Assembly: GCA_030619985.1 (NCBI GenBank)
Contig: JAUXAI010000014.1
Coordinates: 1-20,463, forward strand
Length of the DNA: 20,463 bases
Direction: 5' to 3'
Source of the DNA: a bacterium
GTDB lineage: Bacteria; UBP18; UBA7526
Part shown: one piece after another, positions 4,758 to 18,687 of the stretch
Numbering within the stretch: position 1 is the first letter of the stretch
Layout of the letters: every line of letters starts with the position of its first letter
The notes under the pieces: model-generated
Databases searched by the model: none
What the model was told of the DNA's origin: nothing
The model's input: only the letters and a program-made list of their open reading frames with translations
Translations under genes and position numbers: made by a program

Positions 4758-5984
4758 ATGAATAGAGTAGTCATTACTGGATTAGGGGTAATCTCACCCA
4801 TTGGAATAGGAAAAAAGACCTTTCTAAAGAGCCTTAGAGAAGGAAGACTGGGAATAAAAGAGATTACCCGGTTTGATACCTCGAAATATAGGTCTCATCT
4901 GGGCGGAGAGGTCACTGATTTCAATCCTAAGGATTATATCAATCCTATGAAGATCAGAAGGATGGATCGGGACTCCCAGATTGCGGTTGCTGCTGCTGTC
5001 TTAGCCTTGAAGGATGCTAGCTTGGAGATTACTTCTGAGAATTCCTCAGTGTGTGGAGTCATATTGGGGAGCGGATTTACCGGCCTGGAGACCACAGAGG
5101 CCTTCCATAGAGGACTCATTGAGCATGGCCCAAGTGGAGTAAATCCCATGCTCTTTCCCAATACCGTTCCCAATGCTCCTGCTGGCCATATCTCGATAGA
5201 ACTGGGGATTACTGGCCCCAACTCCACCATTACTCAGAAGGGAGCAACGGGTGAAGGGGCCATAGGTTATGCCTATAGTCTCTTGAGGCATGATAAGGCA
5301 AAGGTCATCCTAGCTGGTGGAGTAGATGAGCTCTCCTGGATACTATTCCATGCCTATTCCCATTTAGGGATACTATCTCCCTTAGAGAATAAAGATTATC
5401 CTGAGGGTTCGCGGCCATTTGATAAGAGAAGAAATGGCATGGTTTTAGGGGAGGGGGGAGGGATTTTAGTCTTGGAGACCCTGGAACACGCCCAAAAAAG
5501 AGGAGCCAAGATATATGCTGAAGTTATAGGTTATGGGATGAGTTCCTCTAATCCTGGAATAAGCGACTACGATAGTGATGGGGCGGGAATGGCGAGGGCC
5601 ATGGAATTAGCATTGGAAGAGGCTAAAGTTTCTATAGGAGAGATTAGCTATATCTCTGCTGCAGCGAATTCCACCCCTATCCTAGATAGGTCTGAGACAG
5701 AGGCAATTAAGAAAGTATTTGGTAAAGGTGTTCCGGTCAGTTCCCTTTCTTCATCTATCGGCTACTTCAATGCCTCTGGTGGCCTGAAAGCAATAAGCGC
5801 CTGCCTGGCAATAGAGAATGGTTTCATTCCTCCCACTATAAATTATGGAGAAAAGGATTCTTCCTGCGACCTAGACTATGTTCCCAATGAGGTAAGGGAG
5901 AAGAAGATAGGGACAGTCCTGATAAATGGATTTGCAGATGGAGGGAGCAATGCCTCTCTAATCTTAGGGAGGTTTCAGGCGTGA
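4758..5984 (+). CDS. Ketosynthase-like protein without catalytic residues (chain-length-factor-like, KS-beta)
   Basis: A 408-residue ketosynthase-fold protein, nearly the same length as the upstream KS and alignable along its whole length (GLGVISPIG start, FADGGSN end), but without the catalytic triad. Gly162 stands where the KS has Cys162 (TQKGATGEG), Ala302 where it has His295 (ISAAANSTP) and Tyr336 where it has His332 (SIGYFNASGG). Known KS-beta/CLF proteins of type II PKS also lack the Cys and act as the non-condensing half of a heterodimer that sets chain length. I infer the same here. The frame is intact and the rest of the fold is conserved, so this is not a decaying pseudogene. It ends in TGA at the left edge of inverted-repeat element copy 1. 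Confidence 0.88.
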   Translation: MNRVVITGLGVISPIGIGKKTFLKSLREGRLGIKEITRFDTSKYRSHLGGEVTDFNPKDYINPMKIRRMDRDSQIAVAAAVLALKDASLEITSENSSVCGVILGSGFTGLETTEAFHRGLIEHGPSGVNPMLFPNTVPNAPAGHISIELGITGPNSTITQKGATGEGAIGYAYSLLRHDKAKVILAGGVDELSWILFHAYSHLGILSPLENKDYPEGSRPFDKRRNGMVLGEGGGILVLETLEHAQKRGAKIYAEVIGYGMSSSNPGISDYDSDGAGMARAMELALEEAKVSIGEISYISAAANSTPILDRSETEAIKKVFGKGVPVSSLSSSIGYFNASGGLKAISACLAIENGFIPPTINYGEKDSSCDLDYVPNEVREKKIGTVLINGFADGGSNASLILGRFQA

Positions 5985-6070
5985 ATCCCGCACCTTTTAC
6001 TATGTTTTATACTTATCGTTTAAAAAGCAAAAGAAAAAGCCTTATGAGTCATAAAAAAGGTGCGGGATGA
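5982..6070. mobile_element. TGA-flanked inverted-repeat element, copy 1
   Basis: An 83 bp element (5985-6067) lies between direct TGA copies (5982-5984 and 6068-6070). Its ends, ATCCCGCACCTTTT at 5985-5998 and its exact complement at 6055-6068, form 14 perfect pairs. The left TGA is the stop codon of the KS-beta gene. The right end carries AAGGTG (6057-6062) four bases before the ATG of the next gene. Removing the element plus one TGA leaves GTGAAGAAG, a GTG start overlapping the TGA stop, with AGGGAGG (5966-5972) correctly placed upstream. No transposase is encoded, so it would be non-autonomous (MITE-like; inference). Confidence 0.8.
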
Positions 6071-8940
6071 AGAAGACCTCGCTTTTTTTATTCTTAATCT
6101 TTCTCTTTTTCTCTCAAGGTGCTTTTGCTCAAAATCTCTTAAACCCTAATCTAATTCCCAAGACCCCGGAGGAAATCATCCTGGGGCAGGTTCCCTGGTC
6201 TCCCTTTAACCATCCAGAGATAAAGTGGTATGTCATAGAGGCTCCCCATTTCCTGGTCTACTTTGACAAAAGAAAACATACTGCCGTTGCTAAAGATGTA
6301 GCCGAGATTGCGGAGAGATGCTATGGACCGATTACCAAAAGGCTGGGCCATGAGCCAGAGGGTAAGACCCATATCATAATCTTAGATATCGATGATTATG
6401 CCAATGGATTTGCTGACTCTACAAATCAGAGGATTGTCATCTGGCTCACTCATATGGATATCTCCTTGAGAGGGACCCATAAGTGGCTGGAGACGGTCAT
6501 TCCCCATGAGTTTACCCACATCGTCCATCTGGACATCATGAGCGGCCTTCCCAGAAGGCTGGTTAAGGTATTCGGTCCGGGATTCCCCGGGCCCAGTGAG
6601 TTCGTTCCCTCTTGGTTCATTGAGGGATTGGCCCAGGATACGAGTGAAGTTGGAGGAGGAGAATTCTGGGATAGCCATCGAGATATGATCTTAAGAAGTG
6701 CAACATTAGAGGATAAACTACTCACCTATAATCGGATGGGGGTCTACGGGAAGAATGGCTTAGGGAATGAGATGGTCTATAATCAGGGCTACTCTCTCAC
6801 TAAATATCTGAAGAAGAAGCATGGGGAAGAAGGTATTGCCTCCATCTTAGAAGGGAAGGGCCATAACTATCTTTCCCTAAAAAGGAATATGTATCGTCGG
6901 GTAAAAGATACTTCTAAGTGGCTCTATAAAGAATGGAAGGAGGATCTGGAGAAGAAGTACAAGGAAGAGACTAAGGGAATTACTCCAGATGAGAACGTCA
7001 AGGATCTAGTTTCCTGGGGATGGTCTGATAGACACCCTACCTTTTCACCGACCAAGAATGAAGTGGCCTTTGTCTCCAATAAGGGCCAGGACTATGAGAA
7101 ATTAAGACTCTATCTCTTGGACCTGGATAGTAAGAAACATAAGTGTCTGGAGAAAAAAGTCAATCCCGATCCCTCCTTCTCCTATGGTGGAGAGAAGTTA
7201 GTCTACTCTAAGAATTGGTACAACTGGCGGGGTTCCTATTATAGTGATCTCTATATTATTGACTGGACGAAGGTAAATAAGAAGAGGCGCCTCACCCGGG
7301 GGATGAGGGCCAAGGAGCCCTACCTCTCACCAGGTGGAAGAAGCATTGTCTTTATCAAGAATGAAGAAGGAAGAACAAATATCTGCCTCTTTAGTTTGGA
7401 GACGAAAAAGGTCACCTATCTTACCAAGATCGAGGACTATACTCAGTACTTCACTCCCAAGTTCTCACCAGATGGAAAGAAGATCGTCTTCTCCAGATTC
7501 AAGGACGGCCAGAGGGATCTATATCTAATGAATGTCGATGGATCAGGAATAGTCTCCCTTACCAATGATAAAGCGGATGATCGGGATCCCTCCTGGTCAA
7601 AGGATGGCAAGAGAATCATCTTCTCCTCAGATAGGACGGGAATCTTCAACATCTATGAACTTAATTTGGAGACAAAGAGAATAAAGCAATTGACCAATGT
7701 CATTGGGGGAGCCTTTGAGCCTTCCTACTCTTCTGGAGGAAAGAGGATCGCCTTCTCCTCTTATAGCGCCGATGGCTATGACATTAAAGTCTTAGAGAGG
7801 GAAGAGACTAAAGATGAAACGGAGAAAGGGAGAAAGGGGGAAAGGGGGAAGTTTTCCGATTCTCCGATTCGCCGATTCCCCGCTTCATTTTCAAGCAATA
7901 ATCCTGAATTAGAAGAGAAAGAAGAGTATCCCATAAGAAAGTATCGGCCGAGAATAAGACCCATTCTATGGATGCCCCTGGGCTTGAGTGTTATGGGATA
8001 CGCTCAAGATGTCATGGGGAAGCATATCTTTGAGAGCGCTATCGGGTATGCAGGAGATGGTGGGGTATCGGGCTATGCCTACTATCTTAACCGCCAGTTC
8101 TTTCCCAATATCCTGATTGGCGCTTATGATTACTCTCTTGGTTACACCAACTATATTGAGGGTCCCAATCAGGATAATCTGACCGATGATTACTGGGAGA
8201 GGAGACGGGGAGGAATAGTAGGTGCTGGCTTTCCCCTGGTACCAGTGGGCTATCTATTATTAAAATATGAGGCTTACTTCGTTGATGACATAGATACCGA
8301 CAGGGACATTAATCCTCCCAATCTTCCGGATGATGGCCATATCGCTACCTGGGGAGCGAGCCTTATGCATTATGGGATAAAGCCTACTCTGGACATGGAT
8401 ATCAACCCTCAAGGGAGACGGGTCATCCTCTCTTATGATCTAGCGGATGAGTCCTATGGGAGCGATTTCAACTTCAATGAATACACCCTGGATTGGCGAG
8501 AATATATTCCCCTCTATAAGCGTCATACCCTGGCTTTGAGAGCGATGGGGGGTTTCTGTAAGGGACATAACCTGAGTCAGGGCGCCTTCCTGTTAGGGGG
8601 AATGGAGAACTTGAGGGGTTACGGGGAGAATACCTTTCGGGGAGATAAGATGGGATTCTGGAGCGCAGAGTATCGCTTTCCCATTCTGCAGGATATGGGA
8701 AAGAAGCTCTCCTTCTTCTATCTCGATAGATTATATGGCATGGTCTTTGCGGATAGTGGTACTGCTTGGTTCCAAGGGAAACTATCCATCGGTGACTTCG
8801 ATACTGATGCCGGAGCTGGGATTCGCCTGAAATCCTTCATCTTCTATCATATTCCTCTGAACCTGGAACTTGCCTTAGCCCATGGCTTCGATGACTACGA
8901 GGATGTTCGGCCCTGGCTGGGAATGGCAATAGTCTTCTAA
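6067..8940 (+). CDS. Exported metallopeptidase-like / TolB-PD40 propeller / Omp85-like barrel fusion
   Basis: A 957-residue envelope protein. Residues 1-22 are a signal peptide ending AFA-Q. Residues ~45-300 resemble an MA-clan peptidase: HEFTH at His147-Glu148-x-x-His151 and WFIEGLAQ with Glu186 as the probable third zinc ligand. Residues ~310-600 hold repeated PD40/TolB propeller strands (FSPDGKKIVFSR, WSKDGKRIIFSSDR, SSGGKRIAFSS). A low-complexity, repeat-derived linker covers ~585-620. The C-terminal ~300 residues end in the Omp85/BamA-like signature GGMENLRGYGENTFRG...AEYRFPIL and a terminal Phe. The likely site is the outer membrane with the propeller and peptidase-like domain on one face; function is unknown. 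The start ATG is created by the right end of element copy 1, whose AAGGTG acts as ribosome binding site. Confidence 0.85.
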   Translation: MKKTSLFLFLIFLFFSQGAFAQNLLNPNLIPKTPEEIILGQVPWSPFNHPEIKWYVIEAPHFLVYFDKRKHTAVAKDVAEIAERCYGPITKRLGHEPEGKTHIIILDIDDYANGFADSTNQRIVIWLTHMDISLRGTHKWLETVIPHEFTHIVHLDIMSGLPRRLVKVFGPGFPGPSEFVPSWFIEGLAQDTSEVGGGEFWDSHRDMILRSATLEDKLLTYNRMGVYGKNGLGNEMVYNQGYSLTKYLKKKHGEEGIASILEGKGHNYLSLKRNMYRRVKDTSKWLYKEWKEDLEKKYKEETKGITPDENVKDLVSWGWSDRHPTFSPTKNEVAFVSNKGQDYEKLRLYLLDLDSKKHKCLEKKVNPDPSFSYGGEKLVYSKNWYNWRGSYYSDLYIIDWTKVNKKRRLTRGMRAKEPYLSPGGRSIVFIKNEEGRTNICLFSLETKKVTYLTKIEDYTQYFTPKFSPDGKKIVFSRFKDGQRDLYLMNVDGSGIVSLTNDKADDRDPSWSKDGKRIIFSSDRTGIFNIYELNLETKRIKQLTNVIGGAFEPSYSSGGKRIAFSSYSADGYDIKVLEREETKDETEKGRKGERGKFSDSPIRRFPASFSSNNPELEEKEEYPIRKYRPRIRPILWMPLGLSVMGYAQDVMGKHIFESAIGYAGDGGVSGYAYYLNRQFFPNILIGAYDYSLGYTNYIEGPNQDNLTDDYWERRRGGIVGAGFPLVPVGYLLLKYEAYFVDDIDTDRDINPPNLPDDGHIATWGASLMHYGIKPTLDMDINPQGRRVILSYDLADESYGSDFNFNEYTLDWREYIPLYKRHTLALRAMGGFCKGHNLSQGAFLLGGMENLRGYGENTFRGDKMGFWSAEYRFPILQDMGKKLSFFYLDRLYGMVFADSGTAWFQGKLSIGDFDTDAGAGIRLKSFIFYHIPLNLELALAHGFDDYEDVRPWLGMAIVF
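7821..7879. repeat. In-frame octamer repeats in the propeller-barrel linker
   Basis: GAGAAAGG/GGAAAGGG-type 8-nt units (7821-7848) are followed by CCGATT-N2 octamers (about 7855-7879), all translated in frame as a charged then Ser/Pro/Arg-rich linker between the PD40 propeller and the barrel. The base composition differs from the flanking domains, and the units resemble the intergenic octamer arrays of this window. Confidence 0.65.
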
Positions 8941-10934: not shown

Positions 10935-10987
10935 GCCCCGCCCCTTTTTGCCGGGATAGCTCAGCGGAAGAGCAATGGTTTCGCCCG

Positions 10988-11088
<101 letters not shown>

Positions 11089-11142
11089 TAAACCATAGGT
11101 CGTGGGTTCGAATCCCGCTCTCGGCTTGGGTTAAAAGGGGCG

Positions 11143-11180
11143 GGGTTAGGTCGGGGGTTCAAATCCCTCTGCGGGCTCCA
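11143..11180 (+). pseudogene. 3' half of a third tRNA
   Basis: Variable-loop-like AGGTC (11148-11152), T-arm GGGGG-TTCAAAT-CCCTC (11153-11169), acceptor 3' strand TGCGGGC (11170-11176), discriminator T and CCA (11178-11180) are all in place. The matching 5' strand GCCCGCA and a D-arm are not found upstream of the outer inverted repeat. The AGGTC loop and T discriminator match the two Thr tRNAs, so this may be a third Thr-like gene whose 5' half was lost. Confidence 0.7.
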
Positions 11181-11735: not shown

Positions 11736-11740
11736 ATCCA

Positions 11741-11868
11741 TGAACCCCGCACCTTCTGCTATATTTTGCCATATTTATCTTTTGAGAATAAAAGATGTGA
11801 AAGACTCTGTATTGGTTTTACTGACTGTAACACAAAATCTTCTAGATGATAAGGAAGGTGCGGGGTGA
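11741..11868. mobile_element. TGA-flanked inverted-repeat element, copy 2
   Basis: A 122 bp element (11744-11865) lies between TGA copies at 11741-11743 and 11866-11868. ACCCCGCACCTTC (11744-11756) and its exact complement (11854-11866) give 13 perfect pairs. Deleting the element and one TGA restores ATGAAGAAGG, an ATG at 11740 with GAGGAG (11727-11732) 7 nt upstream: an ideal ancestral start. The present start is the GTG at 11865, whose G comes from the element, with AAGGTG (11855-11860) before it. The inner sequence is AT-rich; its first ~30 bases loosely resemble copy 1. Confidence 0.8.
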
Positions 11869-12323
11869 AGAAGGTAAAGGACTTTATGACTAAAGAGGTG
11901 GTGACCGTCACCCGCTCCACACCCATCCTGGAGGCCATGAAGATATTCAGCGAGCATCACTATGGGGGATTACCGGTAGTGGATGAGGAGAATAGGATTT
12001 TGGGCATCGTGACCAAGAAGGAACTTCTTATGATGTTCATCCCCGACTACTTCGACCTCTTGGGTGATCTATCCTACATTGAGGACTTTGGACTTCTGAA
12101 GGCCGAGGTCCTTCCCGAACTGAACCAGCTTTTGGTAATCGATGATATCATGATCCGCAAACCAGTCACCGCCACAGAGGATATGCCCCTTTTGGCTGCG
12201 GCCTCTGTCATGGCCCACCACCATCTAAACATCCTTCCTGTGGTAAGGGATGATAAGGTAGTGGGAATTATCAGTCAGATGGATATCTGTAGAGCGGTTT
12301 ATAGAGTAGAGAAGAAAAAGTAA
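11865..12323 (+). CDS. CBS-domain pair protein
   Basis: A 152-residue cytosolic protein made of two CBS motifs (VKDFMTKEVVTVTRSTPILEAMKIFSEHHYGGLPVVD near the N-terminus, and DDIMIRKPVTATEDMPLLAAASVMAHHHLNILPVV after residue ~85) separated by a ~40-residue linker rich in hydrophobic and acidic residues. CBS pairs (Bateman modules) commonly bind adenine nucleotides and regulate partner enzymes or transporters. The next gene, one base after the stop, encodes an ArsB/NhaD-type transporter, its most likely target (inference). The GTG start and the AAGGTG ribosome binding site are both supplied by the right end of element copy 2. Confidence 0.9.
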   Translation: MKKVKDFMTKEVVTVTRSTPILEAMKIFSEHHYGGLPVVDEENRILGIVTKKELLMMFIPDYFDLLGDLSYIEDFGLLKAEVLPELNQLLVIDDIMIRKPVTATEDMPLLAAASVMAHHHLNILPVVRDDKVVGIISQMDICRAVYRVEKKK

Positions 12324-16609: not shown

Positions 16610-16710
16610 TTACACGGATGGGCACAGATTAAAAGACACGGATTAGCACTGATTCTTATTACTAAATCCGTGCTAATCAGTTTAGTCAATCTGTGCTAAT
16701 CTGTGAAGAT
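16610..16710. repeat. Palindromic CACGGATTAGCAC repeat overlapping the purB leader
   Basis: ACACGGATTAGCACTGATT (from 16636) is answered by AATCCGTGCTAATCAG (from 16665) and AATCTGTGCTAATCTGTG (16688-16705), with a further ACACGGATGGGCACAGATT at 16612-16630. The set can form a long imperfect hairpin in the purB 5' leader. The GTG at 16703 that begins the longest purB reading frame lies inside this repeat. Confidence 0.75.
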
Positions 16711-16750
16711 TGCCGAACGAAGTGAGGCCTATCTTGAAAGGGGGAGGAAG

Positions 16751-18043
16751 TTGTTAAAGAAATATACTCTGCCAGAGATGGGAGAAGTTTGGAGTGAGGA
16801 GAATAGGTTTAAAAAGTATGTGGAGATCGAGGTCCTGGTCTGCGAGGCCCTAGCCCAGATGGGCCAGATTCCAAAAGAGGCAGCAAAGAAGATTCGCAAG
16901 AAAGCAAAAGTAGATATTAGAAGGGTAAAGAAGATTGAGAAAGTAACCCGCCACGAGACCATGGCTCTTATTGAAGCAATAAGCGAAAAGGTGGGCAAGG
17001 AGGCAAGATACCTTCATCTTGGTCTCACTTCATCCGATATCCTGGATACTGCTCTGGCTCTGCAACTAAAAGAGTCTTCCCGTTTAATTATTAAGGACTT
17101 GGAGGATTTAATAAAGAGCTTGCTTAAGAAGGCAAGGAAATATAAAGATACGGTTATGGTGGGCAGGACCCATGGCATCCATGCCGAGCCAACCACCTTT
17201 GGCCTCAAACTCCTTCTCTGGAGGGAGGAGTGCCGGAGAAATTTAGAGAGGATGAAGGAAACAAAAGAGATGGTTTCTTATGGCAAGATCTCTGGGCCAG
17301 TGGGAACCTATTCCAATATCGATCCTAAGGTAGAGAAGATAGTCTTAAAAAGAGTGGGTTTAGAGCCCGCTCCCATTTCTACCCAGATTATTCAGAGGGA
17401 TAGGCAGGCCCGGTATCTGGCTACTTTAGCCCTGATCGCTACCTCTTTGGAGAAGTTTGCCCTTGTCTTGAGAAACCTGCAGAGGACAGAGATCGGGGAA
17501 GTGGAAGAGCCCTTTGCTAAAAGACAGAAGGGATCCTCCGCCATGCCCCATAAGAGGAATCCCGTAATCTGTGAGAGGCTTTGTGGCTTAGCACGGGTAG
17601 TTAGAAGCAATCTTTTAGCAGGTCTGGAGAATATTCCTTTATGGGAGGAGAGGGATATTAGCCATTCCTCTGTGGAAAGGATCATTATTCCAGATTCGAG
17701 CATCTTAGTTGATTATATGCTCCATATGTTTAGAGAAATCATAGAGGGCCTAAGAGTCTATCCCGAAAAGATGCAAGAGAACTTGGAGAAGACAAAGGGT
17801 TTGATCTTTTCCGAAAAGGTATTACTGGAGTTGATGAAGAAGGGCCTTTCTCGAAAAGAGGCCTATTCCCTTGTCCAGAGGAATGCCTTCCGGGCAAAAG
17901 AAAAGGGTTTAGAGTTCAAAGACTGTCTATTGAAGGATAAAAAAGTCACTAGACATCTCAAGCCCCAGGAGATAGAAGGCTGCTTTAATCTCAAATATTA
18001 TCTTCGCAATGTGGCTAAGATTTACAAGAGATTGGGTATATGA
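16751..18043 (+). CDS. purB: Adenylosuccinate lyase
   Basis: Catalyses fumarate release in two purine steps (SAICAR to AICAR, and adenylosuccinate to AMP). The 430-residue protein begins LLKKYTLPEMGEVWSEENRF, matching the usual PurB N-terminus. It carries RHETMALIEAI, HLGLTSSDILDT, the VGRTHGIHAEPTTFGLK histidine region and the fumarase/aspartase-superfamily signature GSSAMPHKRNP (Ser262/263). I chose TTG 16751, preceded by GGGGGAGG (16740-16747, only 3 nt away), because the sequence upstream to GTG 16703 belongs to an intergenic repeat; the start is uncertain. The stop TGA is the left TGA of element copy 3. Next genes: isochorismatase-like hydrolase and purH. Confidence 0.93.
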   Translation: MLKKYTLPEMGEVWSEENRFKKYVEIEVLVCEALAQMGQIPKEAAKKIRKKAKVDIRRVKKIEKVTRHETMALIEAISEKVGKEARYLHLGLTSSDILDTALALQLKESSRLIIKDLEDLIKSLLKKARKYKDTVMVGRTHGIHAEPTTFGLKLLLWREECRRNLERMKETKEMVSYGKISGPVGTYSNIDPKVEKIVLKRVGLEPAPISTQIIQRDRQARYLATLALIATSLEKFALVLRNLQRTEIGEVEEPFAKRQKGSSAMPHKRNPVICERLCGLARVVRSNLLAGLENIPLWEERDISHSSVERIIIPDSSILVDYMLHMFREIIEGLRVYPEKMQENLEKTKGLIFSEKVLLELMKKGLSRKEAYSLVQRNAFRAKEKGLEFKDCLLKDKKVTRHLKPQEIEGCFNLKYYLRNVAKIYKRLGI

Positions 18044-18133
18044 ACCCCGCACCTTTAAGCAAGAAGAAGGAATTGAGCCCCACACCTTTGACAGGAACAC
18101 GGAAAAAGAGGAATATAAAAAGGTGCGGGGTGA
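18041..18133. mobile_element. TGA-flanked inverted-repeat element, copy 3
   Basis: An 87 bp element (18044-18130) lies between TGA copies at 18041-18043 (purB stop) and 18131-18133. ACCCCGCACCTTT (18044-18056) and its complement (18119-18131) give 13 perfect pairs. A second degenerate left end, GCCCCACACCTTT, lies inside at 18077-18089, suggesting an internal duplication or nested partial copy. Deleting the element with one TGA restores ATGAGGACC, an ATG overlapping the purB TGA by four bases. The current start is the GTG at 18130. Confidence 0.82.
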
Positions 18134-18687
18134 GGACCGTGCTCTTAGTCGTTGATATGCAGAACGACTTCATCTACTTTAAGAACTCACCGGTCTACGT
18201 TCCACCTGCCAAGAAGATTATTCCTAAGATAGTTAAACTTTTAACTACCTGCCGCAAGAAAAAAATTCCCATCGTTTATGCTATTACTTCTCACAAAAAG
18301 GATAGAAGCGACTGGGCTCTACTGGATAAAAAGTATAATCGCGCCTACTGTATAGAGAATACTCCTGGAGCAAGGCTCATTCTTGAGATTAATCCTCAAG
18401 GGAAAGAATATATTGTTAGGAAGAGAAGGTATAGTGCTTTCTATAAGACAGGCTTGGATAGGCTTTTGAAGAGATTAAAAGTTAAAAGGCTCATCATCTG
18501 CGGGGTGACCACCAGCTGCTGCGTCTCTTCTACGGTAAGGGATGCCTACTTCCGGGATTATGAGGTTATGGTGGCCTCTGATGCCGTGAGCGCTACCCAC
18601 AGAGACCTGCATAGGGCCGCCCTAAAATATTTTGAAGAGAATATCGGACTGGTATCAAAAACAGATGAAGTCATCAAAAAGATCTAA
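18130..18687 (+). CDS. Isochorismatase-fold cysteine hydrolase (nicotinamidase-related)
   Basis: A 185-residue cytosolic hydrolase, probably acting on an amide. The triad of the family is present: Asp9 in LLVVDMQNDF, Lys98 in IVRKRRYSAFYKT and Cys131 in CGVTTSCCV; DAVSATHRDLHRAAL near the C-terminus is also typical. The substrate is not readable; nicotinamidase, ureidoglycolate-type and other amidases share this fold. GTG 18130 is chosen because everything upstream in this frame is the mobile element; a start at ATG 18040 would translate 30 residues of element. AAGGTG at 18120-18125 is the ribosome binding site. The 3' end overlaps purH by 23 nt. Confidence 0.9.
   Translation: MRTVLLVVDMQNDFIYFKNSPVYVPPAKKIIPKIVKLLTTCRKKKIPIVYAITSHKKDRSDWALLDKKYNRAYCIENTPGARLILEINPQGKEYIVRKRRYSAFYKTGLDRLLKRLKVKRLIICGVTTSCCVSSTVRDAYFRDYEVMVASDAVSATHRDLHRAALKYFEENIGLVSKTDEVIKKI

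Follow-up and report, generated by a model that had tools for sequence, protein, structure and literature searches.

The described systems closest to the elements analysed here are the bacterial MITEs, the Rickettsia palindromic elements (RPEs), the REP/REPIN sequences with their RAYT partners, the GIY-YIG homing endonucleases, and a set of insertions in the rRNA genes of CPR bacteria. The RPEs are palindromic elements of about 150 bp that stay open in frame (PMC10969869). In CPR rRNA genes, all GIY-YIG open reading frames are found in non-intron insertions, many other insertions are shorter than 200 bp and lack any open reading frame, and the insertions are located at stem-loops of the structured RNA; the authors judged GIY-YIG to act there outside a homing context (PMC11270868). 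A review of prokaryotic MITEs mentions neither GIY-YIG nor start codons. No description of a GIY-YIG inverted-repeat element in bacteria was found in the open-access literature, a search that stopped short of bioRxiv and most subscription journals.

The window, i.e., the whole 20,463-nucleotide stretch of DNA that was analysed, carries three short elements, copies 1 to 3, at positions 5986-6067, 11745-11865 and 18045-18130. All are intergenic and lie between the genes where a sequence-only reading had placed them, and their end motif, with up to two mismatches, is matched 11 times in the window against 0.98 ± 0.84 times in shuffled sequences. The terminal inverted repeats pair perfectly over 13-14 bp. 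That reading gave the three copies the same ends, which holds for the common core, YCCCGCACCTT/AAGGTGCGGGR, and fails for the base adjoining the flank, which varies (Y/R; the ends of copy 1 are ATCCCGCACCTT/AAGGTGCGGGAT). The bounding tetranucleotides are TGAA/TGAA in copies 1 and 2 and TGAA/TGAG in copy 3. Since the copy 3 orthologues of genomes G002 and G004 read TGAG on both sides, the left TGAG must have mutated by one base in the window genome, and the target duplication is one of 4 bp (TGAA in the first two copies, TGAG in the third), one base longer than the TGA first proposed. In Rfam, only tRNAs were matched in the window, and no family corresponded to the elements themselves. The features are as follows:

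5981-6070, plus strand: leader open reading frame of copy 1, from the old GTG (5981-5983) to the TGA at 6068-6070, reading VNPAPFTMFYTYRLKSKRKSLMSHKKGAG and a stop; its interior resembles a GIY-YIG N-terminus
5982-5985, plus strand: left target duplication of copy 1, TGAA; its TGA ends the upstream open reading frame 4758-5984
5986-6067, plus strand: copy 1 element, 82 bp, TCCCGCACCTTTT...AAAAGGTGCGGGA, between the TGAA copies
6068-6071, plus strand: right target duplication of copy 1, TGAA; with A6067 it forms the new ATG of the open reading frame 6067-8940
11740-11868, plus strand: leader open reading frame of copy 2, from the old ATG (11740-11742) to the TGA at 11866-11868, reading MNPAPSAIFCHIYLLRIKDVKDSVLVLLTVTQNLLDDKEGAG and a stop
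11741-11744, plus strand: left target duplication of copy 2, TGAA; natural empty sites in G002 and G004
11745-11865, plus strand: copy 2 element, 121 bp, CCCCGCACCTTC...GAAGGTGCGGGG; present in G000 and G001, absent from G002 and G004
11866-11869, plus strand: right target duplication of copy 2, TGAA; with G11865 it forms the new GTG of a CBS-domain gene, 11865-12323
18041-18044, plus strand: left target duplication of copy 3, TGAA (TGAG in G002 and G004); its TGA ends the adenylosuccinate lyase gene 16703-18043
18045-18130, plus strand: copy 3 element, 86 bp, CCCCGCACCTTT...AAAGGTGCGGGG, in frame with an isochorismatase-family gene (open reading frame 18040-18687)
18131-18134, plus strand: right target duplication of copy 3, TGAG; with G18130 it forms GTG

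Copies 1 and 3 occupy stop-start overlaps (GTGA and ATGA, respectively), as had been proposed; copy 2 has a TAA 4 bp upstream. In copies 1 and 2, the old start codon and the element together make an open frame of 29 or 42 codons that ends at the TGA of the new start, and copy 3 reads in frame with the downstream gene. Nested within copy 3 is a further, degenerate copy (CCCCACACCTTTGACAGG..., starting near 18078), which resembles the 3' end of L331, an intact element of the window's genus. The prediction that removal of an element restores RTGA was borne out by natural empty sites: the copy 2 junction, filled in G000 and G001, is empty in G002 (AACTAAATGAAGAAGG; ...TAACTAAATGAAGAAGGTAAAGG) and G004 (AATTATGAAAGTAAAAG; ...TAATTATGAAAGTAAAAG), where it reads ATGAAG and ATGAAA, i.e., the predicted ancestral start codon. 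In G002 and G005, the start codon at the copy 1 site is occupied by another element, which is nested, and in G003 the copy 3 site has another one that is decayed. The description of the copies as a non-autonomous mobile element with a short target duplication stands.

Other repeats are found in the same window. At 10936-11145, an inverted-repeat unit (CCCCGCCCCTTTT/AAAAGGGGCGGGG) contains nested tRNA genes: a tRNA-Thr(CGT), whose outer halves when joined give a good tRNA-Thr(CGT), is split in the anticodon loop by an insert carrying an intact tRNA-Thr(CGT) at 11000-11072. On the reverse strand of L119 (Portnoybacteria MHMZ01000031), a tRNA with a GCG anticodon, as read by eye, is split in the T-loop by a CCCGCACCTTCT element with an intact tRNA-Arg(GCG), so that the cargo apparently matches the broken host tRNA there as well. 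Window positions 16613-16705 hold AATCTGTGCTAATCTG-type repeats with overlapping inverted arms, which are widespread across the family genomes.

Beyond the window, the 10-mer CCCGCACCTT occurs 40 times forward and 38 times reverse in the 1.25 Mb draft genome from which the window comes (reversed control, 0 and 1), forming about 36 pairs of ends. A strict short-gap search found paired ends in five of the six family genomes. When one genome per GTDB species was scanned, at least 116 loci were recovered, mostly in Omnitrophota and Patescibacteria MAGs; among the loci listed, further groups were Planctomycetes, Nitrospirota, and Thermodesulfovibrionia, and the few matches in other groups look like chance. 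From these draft metagenome bins a table of 241 distinct elements in several phyla was compiled, with orthologues counted in and decayed copies missed because exact end motifs were required.

Of the 241 elements, 112 lie on a start codon, nearly always R-TGA-R, as judged by an end in RTG followed by an open reading frame of at least 60 codons; other subfamilies lie elsewhere. A 4 bp duplication is visible in about 86 of these 112 (TGAA 71, TGAG 12, few others), and removing it together with the element gives an old start of ATG in 71 cases, GTG in 13 and TTG in one. Among the 73 with an upstream co-directional open reading frame, 42 sit on a 4 bp stop/start overlap. RTGA start codons are strongly over-used as targets and not universal: elements with a TGAR duplication lie on start codons in 24 of 25 cases in G042 and 8 of 9 in G000, against an expectation of about 15% derived from intergenic TGAR sites and a generous count of starts (G042, p about 3e-19; the gene calls are simple open reading frames and hence crude), and the start codon is not the sole target, because sister subfamilies duplicate TTGA at -35 boxes or TAAA. 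Twenty elements with the same ends and other interiors duplicate TTGA; since the site is TTGAC in 16 of them and a -10-like hexamer follows 16-18 bp downstream in 17 (18-20% of control sites), the promoters are cut in two right at the -35 box. A third group with the same ends duplicates TAAA, in several cases apparently at stop codons, as judged by eye only. Four elements lie inside an Omnitrophota RNase P RNA gene (RF00010, 198.5 bits). In that gene (L165, 6664-7174; JAHIUV010000113), the four hairpins replace or extend helices, and one is aligned as a stem of the model.

Neither the fixed orientation, nor the open reading frame, nor the GIY-YIG parent element described below figured in the sequence-only reading. 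The orientation of start-codon copies relative to the gene is identical in 179 of 182 related pairs, not all of which are independent. Their length leaves a remainder of 2 when divided by three in 70 of 112 (p 3e-10), and in 47 of these 70 the leader frame is open from the old start to the TGA of the new one (7.6 ± 2.4 in shuffles), with the consensus M-N-P-A-P-(S/F)...(K)-(E)-G-A-G-stop, the stop overlapping the new start. Most copies form such a separate overlapping frame, and a minority, copy 3 included, extend the downstream frame. Codon-level conservation of the interior peptide was not found in the largest cluster, and purifying selection on the leader peptide was rejected, the synonymous share being about the same in all frames; what is kept is thus openness and not peptide sequence. 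In the predicted fold, the left repeat pairs with the new SD-like AAGGTG and the first base of the start codon in a stem of 13-16 bp (z-scores -2.5 to -3.7) that a ribosome reading the leader may open for downstream translation. Ligation of cohesive ends was an attractive source of the fixed orientation, yet non-start copies (L049, and L001 compared with its pair L074) lie either way relative to TGAA, so the orientation is not forced by the target. Translational coupling explains it only in part, as reversed interiors would often be open too. One leader, GTGAAATTGCCGAACGANGTGAGGCC, comes after a 73-nt element at L010, L012, L039, L042 and L265, where it precedes genes that are unrelated to one another (HAD-like, MerR-like and kinase-like), which looks like the spread of a start module.

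A search with PF01541 across the family, and then with a clade profile over 57 genomes, led to intact units of 270-375 bp consisting of a single GIY-YIG gene between the same inverted repeats. Such copies are known from the window's genus (L331), Omnitrophota (L339, L352, L353), Patescibacteria (L324, L361, L412, L413) and bacterium WY3 (L357), and intact genes lie between variant repeats in L349, L364, L366, L367, L369, L371 and L372, the versions with CCCCACACCTTTT, L364 and L371, being from Nitrospirota. L357 lies at a -35 box, its TTGA duplication preceding TTGACA-N17-TATAAT, as does L349 (CCCCGCCCCC repeats, TCAA/TTGA); L369 and L372 are on start codons; and both L353 and L360 struck the starts of nrdR-like genes. 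L372 and L360 each contain a single frame that starts at the host start codon (MNPALPKNEGWYYVYLL..., MNPESSLYSQMHHVYLL...), spans the nuclease and stops at the new start. Truncated or decayed forms also exist. L405, a start-codon element between ptsH-like and ptsI-like genes on contig C48 of the window genome, encodes a truncated GIY-YIG form, MNPAPPKIYYVYLLKSCEKTWIYVGFASDLSRHLQEHSQYIGGAG and a stop (Pfam GIY-YIG E-value 4e-4), and L295 is a decayed intermediate of 292 nt; the incomplete assembly to which the window belongs yielded no intact CCCCGCACC-type nuclease copy. Some interiors resemble the N-terminus of a GIY-YIG nuclease, those of L090 and L016 scoring 15.2 and 11.0 bits in a profile comparison and shuffled peptides at most 6.2. 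Copy 1 scores 6.7 bits, its subfamily members 7-11 and copy 2 2.8, so that the link of copies 1 and 2 to the nuclease, taken alone, is weak.

The nucleases themselves match PF01541 with up to 66.7 bits. Residues Y5, Y16, G18, R26, H30 and E62 are invariant among 17 sequences, and the model has a GIY-YIG fold (pLDDT 94.5) matching UPF0213 BH0048, Slx1 and I-TevI; both the fold and the catalytic Tyr, Arg and Glu place these proteins in the GIY-YIG superfamily. A flanking inverted repeat of at least 12 bp was found for 7 of 14 clade GIY-YIG genes against 2% of control open reading frames, and for many clade GIY-YIG genes repeats were absent from the windows tested. Two GIY-YIG genes on Rhizobiaceae plasmids, in Shinella (L402, NZ_OZ000531) and Rhizobium (L403, NZ_CP020952), lie between 21-30 bp inverted palindrome copies (TCCGTCATCCCAGGGCTTGACCCTGGGATC in Rhizobium), which hints at a wider partnership between GIY-YIG nucleases and palindromic repeats. 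The -35 box in front of a further GIY-YIG gene is split by an element at L047/L327 (G000:C69:30542-30936); that gene, along with a tRNA-like sequence, lies between CCGTCCCGTCCGGCC palindromes.

Several other origins were considered. DDE-type MITEs typically have inverted repeats and a short target duplication, and many of the copies here lack any gene, as would be expected of ordinary MITEs moved in trans by a DDE, Y1/RAYT or similar transposase, the GIY-YIG gene being a passenger or a secondary invader. However, no gene other than GIY-YIG was found inside the repeat-bounded units, the three transposase families searched (PF01797, PF01609, PF13701) gave 0 matches in the six family draft genomes (53-93% complete), and several phyla have GIY-YIG genes between repeats of different kinds; such an origin is considered unlikely. 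The Y1/RAYT candidate was rejected, being absent from the family and, where Y1 genes occur elsewhere, without these repeats as flanks. The IS1380/piggyBac-like and DDE_Tnp_1 candidates, considered because of the CCC termini and the 4 bp duplication, are likewise absent from the family and without linked repeats. When paired ends separated by 0.4-4 kb were sought as the sign of a long autonomous element, only pairs of short copies bracketing genes came up. Host-kept leader-peptide or RNA regulatory hairpins, not selfish ones, would account for the open leader frame, the overlap with the new start and the strong hairpin over the ribosome site; nonetheless, close relatives differ in their presence or absence, the downstream genes are unrelated, copies also lie at -35 boxes and in RNase P RNA and tRNA, target duplications are present, and the peptide lacks codon-level conservation, which makes a regulatory role as the origin very improbable.

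A further explanation, compatible with a GIY-YIG origin, is near-random insertion at T-N-N-A/G followed by purging, which alone would leave the start-codon and -35 pattern. In tight operons the RTGAR overlap is among the few sites that spare both genes, in keeping with the 42 of 73 on 4 bp overlaps. On the other hand, intergenic TGAR sites outnumber usable starts by about 6:1, yet start codons were hit in 24 of 25 and 8 of 9 cases, on crude gene calls, and nothing obvious forces hits on -35 boxes, yet these show TTGAC in 16 of 20 and the -10-like hexamer in 17 of 20. Purging alone is possible and somewhat doubtful. The preference is probably one of nuclease specificity combined with survival, the latter because the duplication rebuilds the signal.

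Taken together, the window elements are most probably internally deleted, non-autonomous derivatives of an undescribed GIY-YIG inverted-repeat transposon. At the level of sequence, the comparisons establish the build of this putative parent (a GIY-YIG gene of about 85-100 codons, 10-14 bp repeats starting (A)CCCCGCACCTT, about 270-375 bp in all, 4 bp duplication), as well as the repeats, duplication, empty sites and intact copies, the derivation by deletion, the frame and the orientation. We infer that intact GIY-YIG copies are autonomous and that their enzyme would make the staggered cut and be required for movement. The nuclease would cut at short sites that form part of widespread functional signals (R^TGAR start codons in this case), and insertion would produce a 4 bp duplication, the joining being performed by the nuclease itself or by the host. 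The GIY-YIG enzymes characterised so far are DNA hydrolases and are not known as strand-transferases; host factors or a further enzyme may thus be needed to join the strands. In copies on start codons, the old RTG and its ribosome site serve the element's own frame (MNPAP...GAG-stop), whose TGA overlaps a new RTG made of the element's last base and the duplicated TG, the right repeat supplying an SD-like AAGGTG. In the mRNA, the repeats are predicted to pair over 13-16 bp and to hide the new SD and start; leader translation would therefore be needed to open the downstream gene. Through this start swap and coupling, both genes would survive, the frame would be kept open and the orientation partly fixed.

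It is also likely, though somewhat less certain, that these elements form a new class of DNA transposon whose sole protein is a single-domain GIY-YIG nuclease, with lineages aiming at RTGAR, TTGAC and possibly the TAAA stop. At about 270-375 bp, they would perhaps be the smallest kind of autonomous transposon. Since one side of the insertion has its signal restored by the 4 bp duplication, targets within host signals would stay available and insertions harmless. If true, a GIY-YIG-driven inverted-repeat class with minimal gene content would join the known transposition enzymes, and a selfish element could enter a dense operon with neither gene broken, taking a start codon and returning one; leader peptides and N-terminal extensions could also arise anew from it. 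A nuclease that really reads RTGAR or TTGACA would naturally lend itself to directing insertions to start codons or promoters.

Compared with described systems, the elements resemble bacterial MITEs in being short, with inverted repeats, target duplications, many copies and an origin by internal deletion; the 13-14 bp perfect arms, the 4 bp duplication and a GIY-YIG parent with the same ends agree with that class. They differ in the parent, which is only about 270-375 bp and has a gene for a GIY-YIG nuclease in place of a DDE or HUH transposase; derivatives of DDE elements (IS4/IS5-type, IS1380) would call for PF01609 or PF13701, which are absent from the six family genomes. REP/REPIN sequences with RAYT are likewise intergenic palindromes with a small single-domain nuclease partner, whereas this family lacks a Y1 transposase (PF01797, 0 matches in six family genomes) and has real 4 bp duplications. 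Like the RPEs, the elements are palindromic and stay open in frame. However, RPEs are often in-frame fusions inside open reading frames, which most start-codon copies are not; these take the start codon, in most cases as a leader gene that overlaps the next one, and have an identified parent nuclease. The GIY-YIG homing endonucleases (I-TevI type, free-standing or intron-encoded) are similarly nucleases of selfish elements with constrained targets, but here there is no intron, and short inverted repeats, a 4 bp duplication and gene-less derivatives are found instead. Homing addresses one cognate allele, in contrast to the many unrelated insertion sites per genome observed here, and the few target bases that these sites have in common seem to argue against classical homing. 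The CPR rRNA insertions (PMC11270868) are alike in being non-intron, some with GIY-YIG and others short and lacking open reading frames, although they are described in rRNA genes only and inverted repeats are unmentioned; if the present reading is true, it gives an origin for those short or GIY-YIG-bearing insertions, left unexplained in that study. The best reading overall is that a GIY-YIG element settling on start codons, for which no published description was found, represents a new transposon class.
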